Position numbers and translations under genes: made by a program
Shown here: piece after piece, positions 39,100 to 47,085 of the stretch
Layout: each line of letters starts with the position of its first letter
Position numbering within the stretch: the stretch's first letter is position 1
Notes under the pieces: generated by a model
Seen by the model: only the letters and a program-made list of their open reading frames with translations
The model's database searches: none
What the model was told of the DNA's origin: nothing
Origin: Flavobacterium sp. BFFFF2
Lineage (GTDB): Bacteria; Bacteroidota; Bacteroidia; Flavobacteriales; Flavobacteriaceae
Reading direction: 5' to 3'
Assembly (NCBI GenBank): GCA_002256385.1
Contig: NKJD01000006.1
Location: forward strand, 32,866 to 96,865
Length of the DNA: 64,000 nucleotides

Positions 39100-39167
39100 T
39101 GATTTCAAGGGTAATGTTTAACGTTAATGATTACCTGTTTTTTTAAATCCGAAATGAGGTGATGTTC

Positions 39168-39631
39168 CAAAGTTAGTGATGATATAATTTTCCCACCCAA
39201 CCACCTGAAAACCAATAAAAAAAAGCAGTTTTGATTGTTATCACTTGTCTTTTCGAGCATTGACAAGCTCATAAACACCATGAAATTAGGGATTTAGAAT
39301 ACCCTGCGGGAACTAGGTGCCTGGTTTTAATAGGTGCTGTTCGTAAAAAAACTTTAAACTTTAAACTTTTCAACTTTAAACTAAAATCGCGTGAGGGATG
39401 GCAGTGGCATCCTCCGCCTTGGCGGAGATATAACGGACAGCCCGACCCGTTCCTGAACTAAACCTTCTGTTATTGGAAAAAGTAGTGGAACGGGGCACGC
39501 CCAAAGCTGAGTTGGAAAGTTGAATGTTGCAAGTTGGAAAGTTGCTCTCCTGCTTAAACTTCTTCATTTTCTTGCACAAAGAAATCTGAAAACTTCTTAG
39601 ATTTATGTTCTGAAAATTGGATTTGGCTTTG
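39168..39631 (+). repeat. Long composite repeat, copy 2, with a structured core
   Basis: Order: CCCACCCAACCACCTGAAAAC, CTTGTCTTTTCGAGCATTGAC, CCTGCGGGAACTAGGTGCC, heptad filler (TTAAACT), then a core at 39387-39506 and a right part ending GATTTGGCTTT. The core reads GCGTGAGGGATGGCAGTGG, CATCC, hairpin TCCGCC-TT-GGCGGA, GATATAACGGACAGCCCGA, stem CCCGTTCC/GGAACGGG, GGCACGCCC. The two inner stems change sequence but stay paired in other copies. Confidence 0.88.
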
Positions 39632-39722
39632 ACAGGAAAGTTGGGTGCAATTTGCTATCTGGCTTGTAGAGCAGACACTTGGATTGATGAAAAAATGATG
39701 TTAATTGTAACAGAGGTAGGTG

Positions 39723-39950
39723 ATGGAAACATATAGTTATGAAAGTTTAGCAGGTTTGATATTCTTGTTCTTGATTTGTTTTTATTTTTTAAGAGATTTA
39801 TATTATGAATACAAACGGGAGGGGTTTAAGAATAAATCTATTGTTGGTAAATCAAATTTTATTAGAGGAGTAATGTTATGTTCGACTGGGGTGATAATTT
39901 CGACATTACTCATAATGAAATGTGTATTGCATTTAATTAATAATAAGTAA
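39723..39950 (+). CDS. Small membrane protein, first of a tandem pair
   Basis: A 75-residue protein with two predicted helices (about 8-27 and 50-70) and a charged loop (YYEYKREGFKNKS). It is a paralogue of the protein at 40227: METYSYESL versus METYNYQSL, EYKREGFKNKS versus EYKKEGFRDRS, FIRGVMLCSTGVIIS versus FIRGIMLSSAGVIIS. ATG 39723 is chosen by that match. The 45 bases upstream of both genes are also alike (TTGGATTGAT...AGAGGTA), so the duplication covered the leader. No family recognised. Confidence 0.75.
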   Translation: METYSYESLAGLIFLFLICFYFLRDLYYEYKREGFKNKSIVGKSNFIRGVMLCSTGVIISTLLIMKCVLHLINNK

Positions 39951-40226
39951 TATTTAAAAGCTAATGATGTGGTGGTTTATATGTTCAACAATTGAAAATC
40001 ATCAATAAAATCAAGTTGGATTCCAAGTGTTTTTTAGTTTTAATCTGCTATTAAATTACAAGAAGTTTGGGCTTTGGATCTTTGCGATTTTTTTATGTAT
40101 ATTTAAATTCTATGTCAAAAATTTCATAAAAGAAGGTATGGATTTCGCAATACTGCAATTAAGCTCGCCAAGGTCTGGAATTTGGATTGATAAAATGGAT
40201 GATGTTAATAATAATAGAGGTAAATA

Positions 40227-40457
40227 ATGGAAACATATAACTACCAAAGTTTAATTGTGATATTTGTTTTAATATTATATTCAATTGTTGAAATTAGAAG
40301 GTTATACATTGAATATAAAAAAGAAGGCTTTAGAGATAGATCAAGTATGGATAAATCAATGTTCATAAGAGGAATTATGTTATCCTCCGCTGGAGTTATA
40401 ATTTCAATTATACTTTTCATAAGATGGCTTAATCATTTGGCATTGTTTAAAAGTTAG
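40227..40457 (+). CDS. Small membrane protein, second of a tandem pair
   Basis: A 76-residue paralogue of the preceding gene with the same two-helix layout (about 7-26 and 50-69) and conserved loop EYKKEGFRDRSSMDKSMFIRG. Conservation of the protein sequence despite divergent DNA supports coding. The ATG overlaps the stop of a short upstream frame as TAATG. It is followed at once by copy 3 of the long repeat. Function unknown; a two-helix hairpin topology is inferred. Confidence 0.78.
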   Translation: METYNYQSLIVIFVLILYSIVEIRRLYIEYKKEGFRDRSSMDKSMFIRGIMLSSAGVIISIILFIRWLNHLALFKS

Positions 40458-40917
40458 CGACGCCCTATTTTACCAACCCAACCACCTGAAAACCAACAAA
40501 AAATTGAATCAGTGACGCGTGTTGTCACTTGTCTTTTCGAGCATTGACAAGCTCATAAACACCATGAAATTAGGGATTTAGAATACCCTGCGGGAACTAA
40601 GTGCCTGGTTTTAATAGGTGCTGTTCGTAAAAAAACTTTAAACTTTAAACTTTTCAACTTTAAACTAAAATCGCGTGAGGGATGGCAGTGGCATCCTTTT
40701 GCTTTAGCAAAAGATATAACGGACAGCCCGACCCGTTCCTGAACTGAGTTTTCTTTTATTGGAAAAAGTAGTGGAACGGGGCACGCCCAAAGCTGAGTTG
40801 GAAAGTTGAATGTTGCAAGTTGGAAAGTTGCTCTCCTGCTTAAACTTCTTCATTTTCTTGCACAAAGAAATCTGAAAACTTCTTAGATTTATGTTCTGAA
40901 AATTGGATTTGGCTTTG
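40450..40917 (+). repeat. Long composite repeat, copy 3, with a structured core
   Basis: Near-identical to copy 2 for most of its length. The core at 40672-40792 has TTTTGC-TTTA-GCAAAA in place of copy 2's TCCGCC-TT-GGCGGA hairpin, flanked by the same CATCC and GATATAACGGACAGCCCGA. The CCCGTTCC/GGAACGGG stem is kept while its loop differs by several bases. It starts inside the last codons of the small membrane protein gene. Confidence 0.88.
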
Positions 40918-41055
40918 GCCACAAAGTCGGGCTCCAATAGCCATCAAGCTTGCGGAGCAGGGATATTATCAAAGACAATTTTGGAGCGGGGAATTTCAAT
41001 ATTACTGGATACATCGCTATGGACCATTTTTAACATAGAAATTAAAATAAAGTTT

Positions 41056-41415
41056 ATGCCTCAAGAATTTAAAGCCCCATTAGGATTAAAAGTATTTTTA
41101 GTAGTTGTTGTTATTGTATTGTTTTTTTATAATTTTTATTATGTAGGATATAGACAAAACAAAAACAAGAGTGAGTTTTTTAAGAGAGCTTTCACTACAA
41201 AGGTTATAAGTTCAGATTCGTATGAAGGTCGAACTATTGAATATCAACTTGAAAATGGATTGAAAATATATTTTCTACTGCCAATTGATAGCAAAATCGA
41301 ATTACAAGATCTTGTCCAAAAAAGCAAAGAAACTTACCTATACAATGTGTACAGAAAAAACAATGAAAATGAATATAAATATTATACGACATATAACTTT
41401 GGTAAAATGCAATAA
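41056..41415 (+). CDS. Small membrane-anchored protein, hypothetical
   Basis: From ATG 41056 a 119-residue protein has one helix near the N terminus (LKVFLVVVVIVLFFYNFYYVGY, split here by position 10-31) and a soluble domain with a beta-rich pattern: FTTKVISSDSYEGRTIEYQ, GLKIYFLLPIDSKI, TYLYNVYRK. The domain probably faces the periplasm. The longer frame upstream is repeat-derived. AT-rich codon use as in the neighbouring small genes. No family recognised. Followed directly by repeat copy 4. Confidence 0.68.
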   Translation: MPQEFKAPLGLKVFLVVVVIVLFFYNFYYVGYRQNKNKSEFFKRAFTTKVISSDSYEGRTIEYQLENGLKIYFLLPIDSKIELQDLVQKSKETYLYNVYRKNNENEYKYYTTYNFGKMQ

Positions 41416-41428
41416 AAGGGTATTGTTT

Positions 41429-41800
41429 CAAATTTCGTGATGATGTAATTCTACCCACCCAACCACCTGAAAACCAATAAAAAAAGTAGTTACGAATGTT
41501 ATCACTTCTCTTTTCTGGCGTTGATCTGCTCTTAAATGCAATGAAATATTGGCTTTAAACCAGCTTTCGGGAATAGAACACCTTGCTTTAGAAGCAGGTA
41601 TTCGAAAAAAAACTTTCAACATTCAACATTACAAACTTGAAACAAAATCCCGCGTGAGGGATGGCAGTGGCATCCTTTTGCTTTAGCAAAAGATATAACG
41701 GACAGCCCGACCCGTTCCTGAACTGAGTTTTCTTTTATTGGAAAAAGTAGTGGAACGGGGCACGCCCAAAACTAAGTTGAAAGTTGTAATGTCAAAAGTT
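41429..41800 (+). repeat. Long composite repeat, copy 4 (left flank of the mutagenesis cassette)
   Basis: A more diverged left part (ACCCACCCAACCACCTG, TGATCTGCTC) and different heptad filler (TTCAACATTCAACATTAC) precede a core at 41650-41770 nearly identical to copy 3, again with TTTTGC-TTTA-GCAAAA. The right part is replaced after about 41800. The copy at 47135-47490 lies in opposite orientation on the far side of the repressor-polymerase genes. Confidence 0.85.
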
Positions 41801-41952
41801 GTAAAGTTGCGCGCTCAGTCAATCTTATTTTTTATTTTACGCAACTTAGTCTGGAGACTACAAAACATTACATCCTGAAAAACAGCAGTCACTATTGTTG
41901 CAAAGTCATGGATTGCGGCGTGTTTACATCCCCCATCACCCCCCACCTAATC

Positions 41953-42726
41953 TCACTTTCGCAGACTAATTTTTTTGCTCAAAGCCGAAAAATCTTGTCG
42001 AATTCCCTGTAGCACATCTTTTACGTTAATCGCGCCCAGATCGTCTTGTTCAAATTCTTGGGTGGCAATGCTACACGCGTACCGCCAGATTTCCAATACT
42101 TCTGAAGTGTTCACCTCATATGGGTCATAAATCGGATTGTCCGATTTGGCCAATAACACATTACTGCCTTTTTTTACCAGCCGTTTGTAGGCAATGCCAT
42201 TCGTTTTGGTCACCAAGACATAGGTTTTGTTGTCCACCACGTCGGCCAAGCGTTCAATATATTCCCCAATGACAAACGAGCCTTCTTTGTGAGGAGGCAT
42301 CGAGTCGCCGGTAACTGGAAACGCCCGGTATTTCCCATTTCTCAAAAACGGCAGTGAAATATGCTGCAAGGCCTCAATAAATTCAGGATCGCTGTAGCCC
42401 ATCAGATAACCCGCCTGCGCTTTTTCGGGCACCAATTCAATCTTGTTTTCGCCCGCGCTGTCAACGGTAATGGGCAGCAAAATGCGATTTTCCTCCAACT
42501 GAATCAAATTTTCATAAGGCACCCGCCTGATATCAAAAGACAACAGCAAATCAATGCTGACATGAAAGTACCGTGAAATCTTTTGCAGGCAGTCGAGCGG
42601 CGGGTCGGTAGTGCCTTCATACTTGGCGTAACGCTCGCGCGGGATGAGCAATACATCCGCTAACTTTTGCTGTGTCATGCCACTTTTGACACGCAGGTAC
42701 CTCAGATTATCAGAAAATATGGACAT
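41953..42726 (-). CDS. XRE/S24-family self-cleaving repressor (LexA-like)
   Basis: A 257-residue regulator. Residues of about 7-62 are an XRE helix-turn-helix (LRYLRVKSGMTQQKLADVLL). The second half is a LexA/CI-type S24 peptidase: putative cleavage bond A105-G106 in EKAQAGYLMG, nucleophile S142 in VTGDSMPPHKEGSFVIGEY, and general-base K181 in GIAYKRLVKK. Family knowledge predicts self-cleavage after DNA damage. It is divergent from a Y-family/DnaE polymerase pair and separated by 98 bases with two palindromes, so it very likely represses itself and the polymerases. Confidence 0.92.
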   Translation of the reverse strand: MSIFSDNLRYLRVKSGMTQQKLADVLLIPRERYAKYEGTTDPPLDCLQKISRYFHVSIDLLLSFDIRRVPYENLIQLEENRILLPITVDSAGENKIELVPEKAQAGYLMGYSDPEFIEALQHISLPFLRNGKYRAFPVTGDSMPPHKEGSFVIGEYIERLADVVDNKTYVLVTKTNGIAYKRLVKKGSNVLLAKSDNPIYDPYEVNTSEVLEIWRYACSIATQEFEQDDLGAINVKDVLQGIRQDFSALSKKISLRK

Positions 42727-42734
42727 GTGTTAAT

Positions 42735-42749
42735 GTGAATTTAATTCAC
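42735..42749. promoter_or_regulatory. Candidate operator 1 (repressor side)
   Basis: GTGAATTTAATTCAC is a perfect 15-base palindrome. It lies 2 bases downstream of the minus-strand -7 box, covering the predicted start of the repressor transcript. Confidence 0.7.
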
Positions 42750-42751
42750 AA

Positions 42752-42759
42752 CAAATATA
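42752..42759 (-). promoter_or_regulatory. -7 box of the S24 repressor gene
   Basis: On the minus strand TATATTTG fits TAnnTTTG, 25 bases before the repressor ATG. Candidate operator 1 follows at once. Confidence 0.65.
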
Positions 42760-42781
42760 AAAATCTTTGGGAATATGGTTC

Positions 42782-42789
42782 TAGTTTTG
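42782..42789 (+). promoter_or_regulatory. -7 box of the polymerase operon
   Basis: TAGTTTTG fits TAnnTTTG; its last base is the first base of candidate operator 2. It lies 35 bases before the ATG at 42825. Confidence 0.6.
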
Positions 42790-42805
42790 TGAAATAATTT
42801 TTCAC
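42789..42805. promoter_or_regulatory. Candidate operator 2 (polymerase side)
   Basis: GTGAAATAATTTTTCAC has GTGAAA and TTTCAC as inverted arms around TAATT. It shares the GTGAA/TTCAC half-sites of operator 1 and overlaps the start region of the rightward promoter. Confidence 0.7.
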
Positions 42806-42824
42806 CTCAAAATATAAAAGCACG

Positions 42825-44006
42825 ATGTCACGGGCAATTGTACACATGGATTTAGACACGTTTTTCGTGTCTTGCGTCAGGCTTGAAAACCCGCAACTCA
42901 CTGGTATTCCACTCATTGTAGGAGGTGGCGAACGGGGCGTTGTCGCTTCTTGTTCCTATGAAGCGCGGTACTTCGGGGTGCGTTCCGCGATGCCCATACG
43001 CATGGCCATGCAACTTTGTCCGCAGGCTAAAATTGTCAAAGGAGACATGGAATTGTTTTCGAAAAAATCGCATGAAGTAACCGAAATTATTGAGGAATAT
43101 GCGCCCATCGTGGAGAAGGCAAGTATTGACGAATTTTATCTAGACATTACGGGGATGGACAAATTTTACGGTTGCTATAAATGGACCAACGAACTGATAC
43201 AAACCATTACAAAAGAAACGGGACTGCCCATCAGTTTTGCTTTGTCGGTGAACAAAACGGTGTCCAAAATTGCCACAGGCGAAGGCAAGCCCAAAGGCAA
43301 TCTGGAAATTCCACAAAATAGGGTCAGGCCGTTCTTAAATCCGTTGTCGATCCGTAAAATCCCCATGGTAGGCGAAGTGACTTTCAACCTGCTTTCGCGG
43401 CTCGGCATCCGCAACATCGAAAAATTATCGGAAACACCGGCCGAAGTGCTCCAAAGTATGATTGGCAAAAACGGATTGGAATTATGGAAAAAAGCCAACG
43501 GCATCGACAACAACCCGGTGGAACCGTACACCGAAAGAAAATCCCTTTCCACGGAACACACCTATTTACAGGATACCATTGACCTCAAAAAAGTAGAATC
43601 ATTGATTTTGGGGATGGTTGAAAAACTCTGTTACCAGGCTAGGTCCGAACAGTGGCTGGTGTCGACGGTTGCGGTAAAAATCAGGTATGCCAATTTTGAC
43701 ACCGAAAATGTGCAAAGAAAGGTGGCTTATACCTCTTACGACCACATACTCGGAAAATTGGCCTTGGAATTATTCCGCAAATTATACAACCGGCGCATGC
43801 GCATCCGACTGGTCGGGGTGTCGTTTATGGGGCTGGTCCGAGGAACCTATCAGATCAATATGTTTGAAGACACCGAAGAACTGTTGGCGTTGTATCAGGC
43901 CTTAGACAAAATGAAAACCCGCTACGGCTTCCACGCGGTGGGTCGGGCCGATGCCATGTTAAAAGCAAAGAGCATTCCCACAAAAGGCGAAAACCCTAAT
44001 TCCTAA
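42825..44006 (+). CDS. dinB: Y-family DNA polymerase (DinB/Pol IV type)
   Basis: A 393-residue translesion polymerase that appears catalytically intact: D9 in HMDLDTFF, and D102/E103 in SIDEFYLDI. The steric-gate region (FFVSCVRLEN), the YEARYFGVRSAMP finger block, the helix-hairpin-helix thumb (IPMVGEVTFNLLSRLGI) and the little-finger domain (RKSLSTEHTY onward) are complete. A clamp-binding motif QINMF lies at 343-347, and a 46-residue tail follows. It is transcribed away from the S24 repressor through candidate operator 2 and is followed 22 bases later by a DnaE polymerase, so an inducible mutagenesis operon is inferred. Confidence 0.93.
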   Translation: MSRAIVHMDLDTFFVSCVRLENPQLTGIPLIVGGGERGVVASCSYEARYFGVRSAMPIRMAMQLCPQAKIVKGDMELFSKKSHEVTEIIEEYAPIVEKASIDEFYLDITGMDKFYGCYKWTNELIQTITKETGLPISFALSVNKTVSKIATGEGKPKGNLEIPQNRVRPFLNPLSIRKIPMVGEVTFNLLSRLGIRNIEKLSETPAEVLQSMIGKNGLELWKKANGIDNNPVEPYTERKSLSTEHTYLQDTIDLKKVESLILGMVEKLCYQARSEQWLVSTVAVKIRYANFDTENVQRKVAYTSYDHILGKLALELFRKLYNRRMRIRLVGVSFMGLVRGTYQINMFEDTEELLALYQALDKMKTRYGFHAVGRADAMLKAKSIPTKGENPNS

Positions 44007-44028: not shown

Positions 44029-47000
44029 ATGTACCTCAACTGCCATTCCTTTCATTCGCTCCGCTTTGGCACCATTCCTTTAGACGATTTGGTGGCCCAA
44101 GCCGTTGGTTATGGGGTCACAGCCATGGCATTGACCGATCTGAATACCGTAACGGGCATCTACGATTTTATAAAGGCATGCAAGAAAGTAGGCATTAAAC
44201 CACTCGTCGGAATCGACTTCCGGAACAACGGCAAGCAACTGTATATTGGGCTGGCCAAAAACAGGGCCGGACTCGCAGAAATGAACCGTTTGGTGACCAA
44301 GCACCATTTTGAAAACACCCTGCTGCCTGAAGTAGCGCCCCCTTTTGACCACGTGTTTGTGATTTATCCGTTTAATAACGTCCCCGACGAACTGAAAGAA
44401 CATGAATTTATAGGCATCGGGGCCGACCAATTGCCCAAGTTGTATAACTACGTTTGGAAAAGAAGAATTTCCAAGATGGTCATTTTGCATTCGGTGACTT
44501 ATCGGACCAAGAAGGAGTTTAACCTACATAAAATACTAAGGGCCATTGACTTAAACATCATCGGATCTAAATTGACCGAAGCGGATTACTGCAAAGTATC
44601 GGAAGTCATGATTCCGATAGATCAACTTTTACAGCGATTCAATGATTTTCCGCAAATCATTCAAAACACGGAGGCCATCATAGCAGGCTGCCATTTTGAA
44701 TACGATTTTTATACGCCAAAAAACAAAAAACACTTTACCGGGAATTCACAAGACGACATGGAATTGCTGACAAAACTGGCTTATGAAGGCATGATTCGCC
44801 GTTATGGCGCCGAGCATGCCGAAGCCAAAGCCAGGGTGGAAAAGGAATTGAAAGTCATTCATGAGTTGGCATTTAGCGGGTATTTTCTGATTACGTGGGA
44901 TATTATTCAATACAGCCTGAACAAAGGTTTTTTACACATTGGTCGGGGCAGCGGCGCCAATAGTATTATTGCCTATTGTTTAGATATCACAAACATTTGC
45001 CCTTTGGAACTCGACTTGTATTTTGAGCGCTTTTTGAACGTCAATCGAAAAACGCCGCCCGATTTTGACATCGATTGGTCATGGCGTGAACGGGACACCA
45101 TTTTAACCTACATTTTCGATAAATATGGTCAAGATCATGTGGCGTTCTGTGGCACCAATGTCGAATTTAAATACCGTTCCATTTTCCGTGAAGTGGGCAA
45201 AGTGTTTGGTTTGCCCAAAGAGGAACTCGATGAATTGGCAAAAAAACCCATGAAAAAGCACCATAAAAACAACGTCGTGATGATGGTGCAAGATTATGGA
45301 ATGATGCTCGAAAAATACCCGAATCAGAGAAGTATGCACTCTTGTGGCATTATCATTTCAGAAGAACCAATCACCCATTTTACGGCTTTGGAAATGCCGC
45401 CAAAAGGGTTTCCGATTGTCCAATTTGACATGCACGTGGCCGAAGATATTGGCTTTGACAAATTCGATATTTTGAGCCAACGAGGCATTGGCCACATCGA
45501 TGACACCGTCAAATTAATCAGGGAAAACCAAGGAATCGAAGTCGATATTCGCGACACGTCGATTTCCAAAGATGAACCAACCTGCAACGAGCTGCTAAGC
45601 CAAGGAAAAACCATTGGGTGTTTTTACATTGAAAGCCCCGCCATGCGCGGCTTGCTCCGACGACTGAAGTGTGACAATTACAAAGTGCTGGTAGCCGCTT
45701 CGTCCATTATCCGTCCGGGCGTGGCCCAATCGGGCATGATGAAAGAATATATTTTCAGGCACAACCACCCCGACCGTTTCGAGTATTTTCATGAGGTGTT
45801 CAAAGAGCAATTGGGCGAAACATACGGCATTATGGTGTATCAGGAAGATGTCATCAAAATTGCTTTGCATTACGGTGGCCTTCCTGCCGCCGATGGCGAC
45901 ATCTTGCGTCGGGCCATGAGTGGCAAAGGGCGGTCAAAAGCTGCGCTGCAAAAGGTAAAAGACGACTTTTTTACTTCCTGTGCAAAACAGGGGCACCCAC
46001 TCGCATTAAGTCAGGAAATTTACCGCCAAATAGAATCCTTTGCGGGCTACTCCTTTTGCAAAGCGCATTCGGCCTCCTATGCGGTGGAGAGTTACCAAAG
46101 CCTGTACTTGAAAACGTATTACCCGATTGAGTTTATGACCGCGGTGATCAACAATTTCGGGGGTTTTTACCGCACGGAAGTGTACATCCATGAAGCGCGC
46201 ATGTCAGGCGCCAAAATCAATTCCCCCTGTGTAAACAAGAGCGATTATCAGACAAAGGTGTATGGCAAAAACATCTATTTGGGCTTTCAGCATCTGAAAA
46301 GTTTGGAATCAAAAACAGCGGAACTGATCACCAAGGAACGAGCAGAAAATGGCCCTTTCAATTCCCTAGAAGATTTTATCAACCGCATTCCCATCGGCAT
46401 TGAAGCGATCCAAATCCTCATTTTCATCGGTGCTTTTCGGTTCACCCGCAAGCCCAAAAACGAATTACTGATCATCGCCCGGCTGATTCTCATTAATTTC
46501 AGGCCCGAAAACCGCGACCTCCTGCTGCTGCAAGAACCGGTGAAGGAATATCAATTACCCGTTTTGGAGCGCTCGCCCTTTGAAGATGCTTTCGACGAAA
46601 TTGAACTGCTCGATTTTCCGGTGTCGGTGACCCCTTTCAACTTGTTGCAAACACGCTACAGGGGCGATGTCATGGCGAAGGATTTAACCAAACACCACAA
46701 GAAAACCGTGAAAATGCTGGCTTATTTGATTTCCAGAAAACACGTGCCCACCAAAAGAGGCGACATGTTTTTTGGCACCTGGATTGATGCGGAAGGCGCA
46801 TTTTTCGACACCGCACATTTTACCGACAGCCTGCAAAAATACCCCTTCAAAGGCGGCGGCTGTTATTTGTTACTAGGCCAAGTGGAAGTCGATTACCACT
46901 TTCCAACCGTTACCATTTCAAAAATGGAGAAAATGCCCTTTATCCCAGACCCCCGTTATTCCGCTACCGATGAAAAACGGTTTCAAACCCAACAACAAAT

Positions 47001-47085
47001 CCGCGAAGATGTCAGCCTAACCCACCGCGCCCCCTATCCGCAGGAACACGAAATTGGGCTGCCGAGGCAGAAGATGAAGCCGTGA
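44029..47085 (+). CDS. DnaE-type DNA polymerase III alpha subunit, probably the error-prone paralogue
   Basis: A 1018-residue C-family polymerase, shorter than replicative alpha subunits. The PHP domain comes first, but its metal motifs are altered: NCHSFHS where H-x-H-S is expected and ALTDLNTVTG where a His usually follows the Asp. The palm is intact, with the catalytic pair D345/D347 in PPDFDIDW, plus GRGSGANSIIAYCL, SMHSCGIIIS, DILSQRGIGHIDD, GGLPAADGDILRRAMSGKG and CKAHSASYAVESYQS. A C-terminal OB-fold region ends the chain. Its pairing with dinB behind an S24 repressor resembles the SOS mutagenesis cassettes of other bacteria. An ImuB-like inactive polymerase is not seen; the DinB here looks active. 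Confidence 0.92.
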   Translation: MYLNCHSFHSLRFGTIPLDDLVAQAVGYGVTAMALTDLNTVTGIYDFIKACKKVGIKPLVGIDFRNNGKQLYIGLAKNRAGLAEMNRLVTKHHFENTLLPEVAPPFDHVFVIYPFNNVPDELKEHEFIGIGADQLPKLYNYVWKRRISKMVILHSVTYRTKKEFNLHKILRAIDLNIIGSKLTEADYCKVSEVMIPIDQLLQRFNDFPQIIQNTEAIIAGCHFEYDFYTPKNKKHFTGNSQDDMELLTKLAYEGMIRRYGAEHAEAKARVEKELKVIHELAFSGYFLITWDIIQYSLNKGFLHIGRGSGANSIIAYCLDITNICPLELDLYFERFLNVNRKTPPDFDIDWSWRERDTILTYIFDKYGQDHVAFCGTNVEFKYRSIFREVGKVFGLPKEELDELAKKPMKKHHKNNVVMMVQDYGMMLEKYPNQRSMHSCGIIISEEPITHFTALEMPPKGFPIVQFDMHVAEDIGFDKFDILSQRGIGHIDDTVKLIRENQGIEVDIRDTSISKDEPTCNELLSQGKTIGCFYIESPAMRGLLRRLKCDNYKVLVAASSIIRPGVAQSGMMKEYIFRHNHPDRFEYFHEVFKEQLGETYGIMVYQEDVIKIALHYGGLPAADGDILRRAMSGKGRSKAALQKVKDDFFTSCAKQGHPLALSQEIYRQIESFAGYSFCKAHSASYAVESYQSLYLKTYYPIEFMTAVINNFGGFYRTEVYIHEARMSGAKINSPCVNKSDYQTKVYGKNIYLGFQHLKSLESKTAELITKERAENGPFNSLEDFINRIPIGIEAIQILIFIGAFRFTRKPKNELLIIARLILINFRPENRDLLLLQEPVKEYQLPVLERSPFEDAFDEIELLDFPVSVTPFNLLQTRYRGDVMAKDLTKHHKKTVKMLAYLISRKHVPTKRGDMFFGTWIDAEGAFFDTAHFTDSLQKYPFKGGGCYLLLGQVEVDYHFPTVTISKMEKMPFIPDPRYSATDEKRFQTQQQIREDVSLTHRAPYPQEHEIGLPRQKMKP

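Follow-up and report, generated by a model that had tools for sequence, protein, structure and literature searches.

A family of non-canonical LexA proteins in Bacteroidetes, with a group recognising CTAA-N5-TTAG, was described by Sanchez-Osuna et al. 2021 (PMC8565304). Within this family, the Elizabethkingia anophelis regulator WP_078407279.1 bound TTAC-AAATT-GTAA in its own promoter in EMSA, and both this regulator and the error-prone polymerase gene opposite to it were induced by mitomycin C (PMC8565304, Fig. 8). Altered spacer length abolished binding in two family members whose sites were mutated, and relatives were reported to control recA, recN, splB and other genes in some clades (PMC8565304). 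A literature search found no later work closer to the Elizabethkingia and spacer findings.

The locus compared here with these systems lies in the window, a 64,000-nucleotide stretch of contig NKJD01000006.1 of Flavobacterium sp. BFFFF2, the genome of which is 3.7 Mb in 118 contigs and 98% complete. The gene order was a repressor gene on the minus strand (41953-42726) encoding a non-canonical LexA of 257 aa, a 98-bp gap, and two genes on the plus strand. These were dinB for a Y-family polymerase (Pol IV; 42825-44006; Pfam IMS and IMS_C, NCBIfam Pol IV above cut-off) and a gene for a DnaE-type polymerase III alpha of the C-family (44029-47085; Pfam DNA_pol3_alpha, finger, HHH_6 and PHP, TIGR00594 above cut-off). 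The latter starts after a 22-bp gap and is presumed to form one operon with dinB. Two divergent -7 boxes were identified in the gap by sequence, TATATTTG for the repressor (42752-42759, minus strand), in which close relatives agree at 7 of 8 columns, and TAGTTTTG for dinB-dnaE (42782-42789, plus strand). No convincing TTTG was found at the usual distance for a -33 box at either promoter, and no phage genes were found in the adjacent stretch examined. Taken as a whole, including the candidate operators A and B described below, the gap (42727-42824) is best explained as the regulatory region of a DNA-damage switch that acts locally, which we consider likely. A tandem array (39163-41939) that ended just downstream of the repressor gene contained a unit of about 1.0-1.3 kb three times. 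Its repeat blocks were 249, 201 and 60 nt long, with identities of 82-94% for the second copies and 64-68% for the third, and two of the three unit copies were located near similar 76-aa predicted membrane ORFs (39720-39950 and 40227-40457).

The repressor showed Pfam matches above the gathering threshold to HTH_3 (PF01381, 34.5 bits) and Peptidase_S24 (PF00717, 25.5 bits). Only HTH_3, HTH_19 and S24 were matched, and the winged-helix domain LexA_DNA_bind (PF01726) was absent. A PDB sequence search with the repressor gave weak HTH matches only. The predicted cleavage bond Ala105-Gly106 (42409-42414, minus strand), Ser142 (42301-42303, minus strand) and Lys181 (42184-42186, minus strand) were invariant in 22 aligned orthologs. 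Judged by its sequence features, the repressor belongs with the non-canonical LexA proteins that PMC8565304 describes for Bacteroidetes: HTH_3 is joined to S24, the Ala-Gly bond occurs with the Ser-Lys dyad, a palindrome with an N5 spacer lies in its own promoter, and control of an error-prone polymerase is suggested by operator B at the dinB-dnaE promoter. Neither of the exact group motifs, CTAA-N5-TTAG and GGA-N5-TCC, was present in the 98-bp gap; these motifs are regarded as subgroup markers and not as family-defining because paralogs with diverged palindromes are also admitted in PMC8565304. No other S24 regulator resembling a repressor was found in the genome, in which the second PF00717 match sits in a 757-codon open frame.

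Compared with the CTAA-N5-TTAG group as described in PMC8565304, the locus has in common the two domains, the cleavage bond and dyad, the dyad-N5-dyad arrangement in its own promoter, the error-prone polymerase targets and the occurrence of diverged palindromes in paralogs, but its half-site is GTGAA instead of CTAA or TTAC and its control apparently extends to one locus. The E. anophelis regulator WP_078407279.1 shares the gene layout, and its TTAC-AAATT-GTAA corresponds to the GTTAC class of many loci compared here, whereas the window has another half-site class; binding was proven there and is predicted here. The predicted S24 self-cleavage, autorepression and error-prone polymerase targets are shared with canonical LexA of E. 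coli and B. subtilis. Unlike canonical LexA, the repressor has a lambda CI-like HTH_3 and no winged helix, recA is not a target as judged by sequence, and the box differs from CTGT-N8-ACAG; an earlier note on this DNA had likewise described the half-site as unlike the LexA boxes of Proteobacteria and Firmicutes. Phage CI-type switches resemble the locus in the HTH fold, the S24 tail and the operators between divergent promoters, but the divergent gene here serves DNA repair or damage tolerance and is not cro or a lytic gene. The kind of system has been known since 2021, and the GTGAA half-site class falls outside the consensus motifs in the published text available. Neither the geometry of the A/B pair, the relation to residue 31 nor the AlkB neighbours was found in that text, and the terms "AlkB" and "recognition helix" are absent from the main text of PMC8565304.

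The earlier note had proposed two symmetric operators in the gap, and both palindromes were confirmed at their places, GTGAATTTAATTCAC at 42735-42749 and GTGAAATAATTTTTCAC at 42789-42805. The first adjoins the repressor box TATATTTG at a distance of 2 nt, and the last G of TAGTTTTG is the first base of the second. The shared half-site GTGAA/TTCAC held for the arms and failed for the register, as the spacers are 5 and 7 bp. By counting alone the palindromes were weak. The window holds two copies of GTGAA-N4..8-TTCAC where 0.57 would be expected, a count also reached by 10 of 100 shuffles; at least two perfect 5+5 palindromes appeared in 54% of shuffles of the 98-bp gap (25% GC). Two non-overlapping palindromes with the same arms were produced by 24 of 2000 shuffles (1.2%) of the same gap, so the common half-site is unusual and not decisive. 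The reality of the first palindrome was therefore settled by comparative evidence. Orthologs and paralogs were drawn from 60 relatives, 398 genus genomes and a named-genome scan, and 103 loci with at least 45% identity were compared after duplicate removal. For loci with more than one candidate box, the box giving the better palindrome was used, which introduces a small bias favouring the palindrome. In these 103 related loci a 15-bp palindrome starts exactly 2 nt after the repressor TAnnTTTG box, with 4.23 of 5 arm pairs complementary compared to 0.74-1.99 at frames moved by 1-2 nt. The site is identical in 6 of 11 other members of the clade of the window. This palindrome, GTGAA-TTTAA-TTCAC just downstream of the repressor -7 box, is very probably the autoregulatory operator of the repressor (putative operator A), as the earlier note had suggested.

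A second site, which the earlier note did not contain, was located at 42769-42783 (operator B). It reads GGGAATATGGTTCTA on the plus strand and TAGAACCATATTCCC in repressor orientation, has the core GAA-N5-TTC and overlaps the TA of the dinB -7 box. In repressor orientation, CAAAnnTA was found 30-31 nt from the repressor box in nearly all loci compared, and across loci a degenerate copy of the A half-sites directly follows this dinB-side box. The centres of A and B are 34 bp apart, or 33 bp in a few loci. B in the window is imperfect, with 7 of 10 arm letters matching A; its register with the dinB box is displaced by 1 bp in the clade of the window, and in sisters it is kept as AGAAT-N-ATATTACC. 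Over 27 HTH clusters, B resembled the A of its own cluster more closely than those of the others, both for the half-site (score of 4.48 vs 3.62, P 2e-4) and for the full arms (7.0 vs 5.31, P 2e-4), while a control region in the far leader did not covary with A (P 0.33). In the loci L055 and L083, A is TGGAATTAAATTCCT and B is GGAATCTAATTCC, both having switched together to GGAAT-N3-ATTCC. A tree-aware test of A against B gave about 4 concordant pairs among 5 well-supported independent pairs and was underpowered.

Of the 103 loci, 102 had a damage gene opposite the repressor, and the remaining one, L077, had an unrelated peptidase as neighbour. Classes assigned by reading the translated starts were dinB (87), AlkB-like (10), ImuA-like (4) and UmuD (1). 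One representative of each non-dinB class was searched against a library; the 2OG-Fe(II) oxygenase and the UmuD-type protein scored above cut-off, and the ImuA-like representative matched ImuA at 1.4e-15, below the curated cut-off. Paralogous repressors with the same A/B promoter were seen to face AlkB-like genes in L020, L028, L072, L101 and L112, ImuA-like genes in L054, L061, L063 and L089, and UmuD in L025.

The half-site classes in the family were GTTAC, GTTCC, GCTAT, GATAC, GGGAT, GTGAT, GTGAA and GGAAT. Residue 31 was the top HTH column covarying with letter 3 of the half-site (z 7.9). In the window this is Glu31 (42634-42636, minus strand), placed in the recognition helix by alignment to HTH_3 proteins. 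Of 27 loci with Asp or Glu at residue 31, 26 had G as the third half-site letter, compared to 4 of 76 loci with other residues, two of these four having Pro31. On the tree of the C-terminal domain, at least 9 changes of residue class were counted, and a tree-aware test gave 2 well-supported independent pairs, both concordant, which are too few to reach significance. Glu31 of the window repressor fits GTGAA, and it would probably read the G:C pair at half-site position 3, giving GTGAA and not GTTAC, GATAC or GCTAT. Among the loci, A, B and residue 31 changed jointly and the geometry was locked. In L138 (G053), GTGAA-N5-TTCAC and a matching B half-site occur with Val31 and an altered helix, VTRVSYAKYE; the GTGAA half-site was apparently reached independently there.

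The proposal of the earlier note that one LexA-like repressor controls the two divergent promoters from symmetric operators placed at their -7 boxes was supported except for its second operator, GTGAAATAATTTTTCAC (site C, 42789-42805), which lies around the start of the dinB transcript and has a 7-bp spacer. A pairing of A with C, mirror-placed at the -7 boxes and bound by one repressor whatever the spacer, draws on the identical GTGAA/TTCAC arms with the shuffle count given above, on a GTGAA that most sisters keep at a near-constant distance from the dinB box, and on conservation of the C block about equal to that of B (mean identity 0.86 vs 0.87). We nevertheless regard it as unlikely. Its spacer is 7 and not 5, and changes of spacer abolished binding in the two family members described in PMC8565304. 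Apart from this species, C is a perfect palindrome in a single sister, whose arms differ; most sister versions read GTGAAAATTTATTTTAC or nearly so, the right arm is TTTAC in the majority, and the spacing runs over 16-18 nt. C also did not follow the specificity of A. The C region did not covary with A over the 27 HTH clusters (3.33 vs 3.22, P 0.15), C remains GTGAAAATATATTTTAC with its GTGAA in L055 and L083 despite the switch of A and B to GGAAT, and C-like blocks (TGAAAATxTATTTTAC) accompany operators of the GATAC and GCTAT classes in L032 and L070. An arrangement of three operators, in which a weak clade-specific C adds to dinB repression, is about as improbable: the left GTGAA half of C is conserved in the clade and its arms are perfect in this species, but the same wrong spacer, variable spacing and failure to switch with A and B in L055 count against it. 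That the palindromes are RNA hairpins in the two 5' leaders and not protein sites is hardly credible, even though each can form a short hairpin (-5.2 and -4.8 kcal/mol, z about -2.7), since any DNA palindrome folds so, A covaries with the HTH residue and with B, which lies outside the repressor transcript, and the arms of C do not pair fully in most sisters. The sequence comparisons thus favour A and B, and not A and C, as the operator pair, with B very probably the second operator to which the repressor would bind. C is probably not an operator; being independent of operator class, it is taken as a conserved AT-rich element at the dinB transcript start, the perfect symmetry of which in this species is probably incidental. 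The AT-rich element GTGAAAATTTATTTTAC was observed to abut the dinB -7 box at the same place in L051, L055, L070, L077 and L080.

The earlier note had also named the palindrome a candidate SOS box for this lineage, a label that fits this one locus but neither the genome as a whole nor the recA and second-dinB regions that were checked. A genome-wide search for GTGAA-N4..8-TTCAC gave 23 matches compared to 31 for a reversed control, and the perfect operator occurs once in the genome. Allowing up to 2 mismatches, GTGAATWWWATTCAC gave 39 matches compared to 42 for the reversed control pattern; the inspected near matches were mostly inside long open frames, and none was non-coding with a well-placed -7 box and a GTGAA half-site. 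A genome-wide SOS regulon in this species with GTGAA-N5-TTCAC as its box would accord with the control of recA, recN, splB and others by relatives (PMC8565304) and with the lack of another S24 regulator in the genome. It is very unlikely given these match counts and the recA and second-dinB loci, where neither GTGAA-N5-TTCAC nor another candidate operator was found in the stretches checked, an absence that is not absolute in a genome 98% complete. The repressor is best read, as far as its candidate sites indicate, as a one-locus damage switch and not as the regulator of a genome-wide SOS box, and full SOS coupling was not seen at this level because recA shows no operator. In the same genome, a non-coding GTTAATAAAATTAAC was observed close to TAnnTTTG-like boxes (L190, 694-708; G000:C97:18915-18929), possibly an operator of another regulator.

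Under the preferred reading with operators A and B, a repressor dimer on A would cover the start of its own transcript and cause autorepression, and a dimer on B would repress dinB-dnaE by covering the TA of the dinB -7 box together with the spacer. When DNA is damaged, RecA filaments would induce the repressor to cut itself between Ala105 and Gly106 with the Ser142/Lys181 dyad, so that both promoters would be released. For the window locus we infer binding, RecA-dependent cleavage and induction from relatives.

LexA boxes vary greatly between bacterial groups and intermediates are rarely seen. The comparison moves the polymerase operator candidate at this locus to 42769-42783 from 42789-42805. 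It also gives somewhat better than even support to the view that Flavobacterium and its relatives hold a rigid two-operator promoter with repeated half-site switching, in which the operators and a few helix residues, chiefly residue 31, change together. With one architecture and many half-site classes within one genus, a change of box may be traced to named residues, and, if true, these loci would offer a naturally occurring series in which box change in a LexA-type repressor can be followed.
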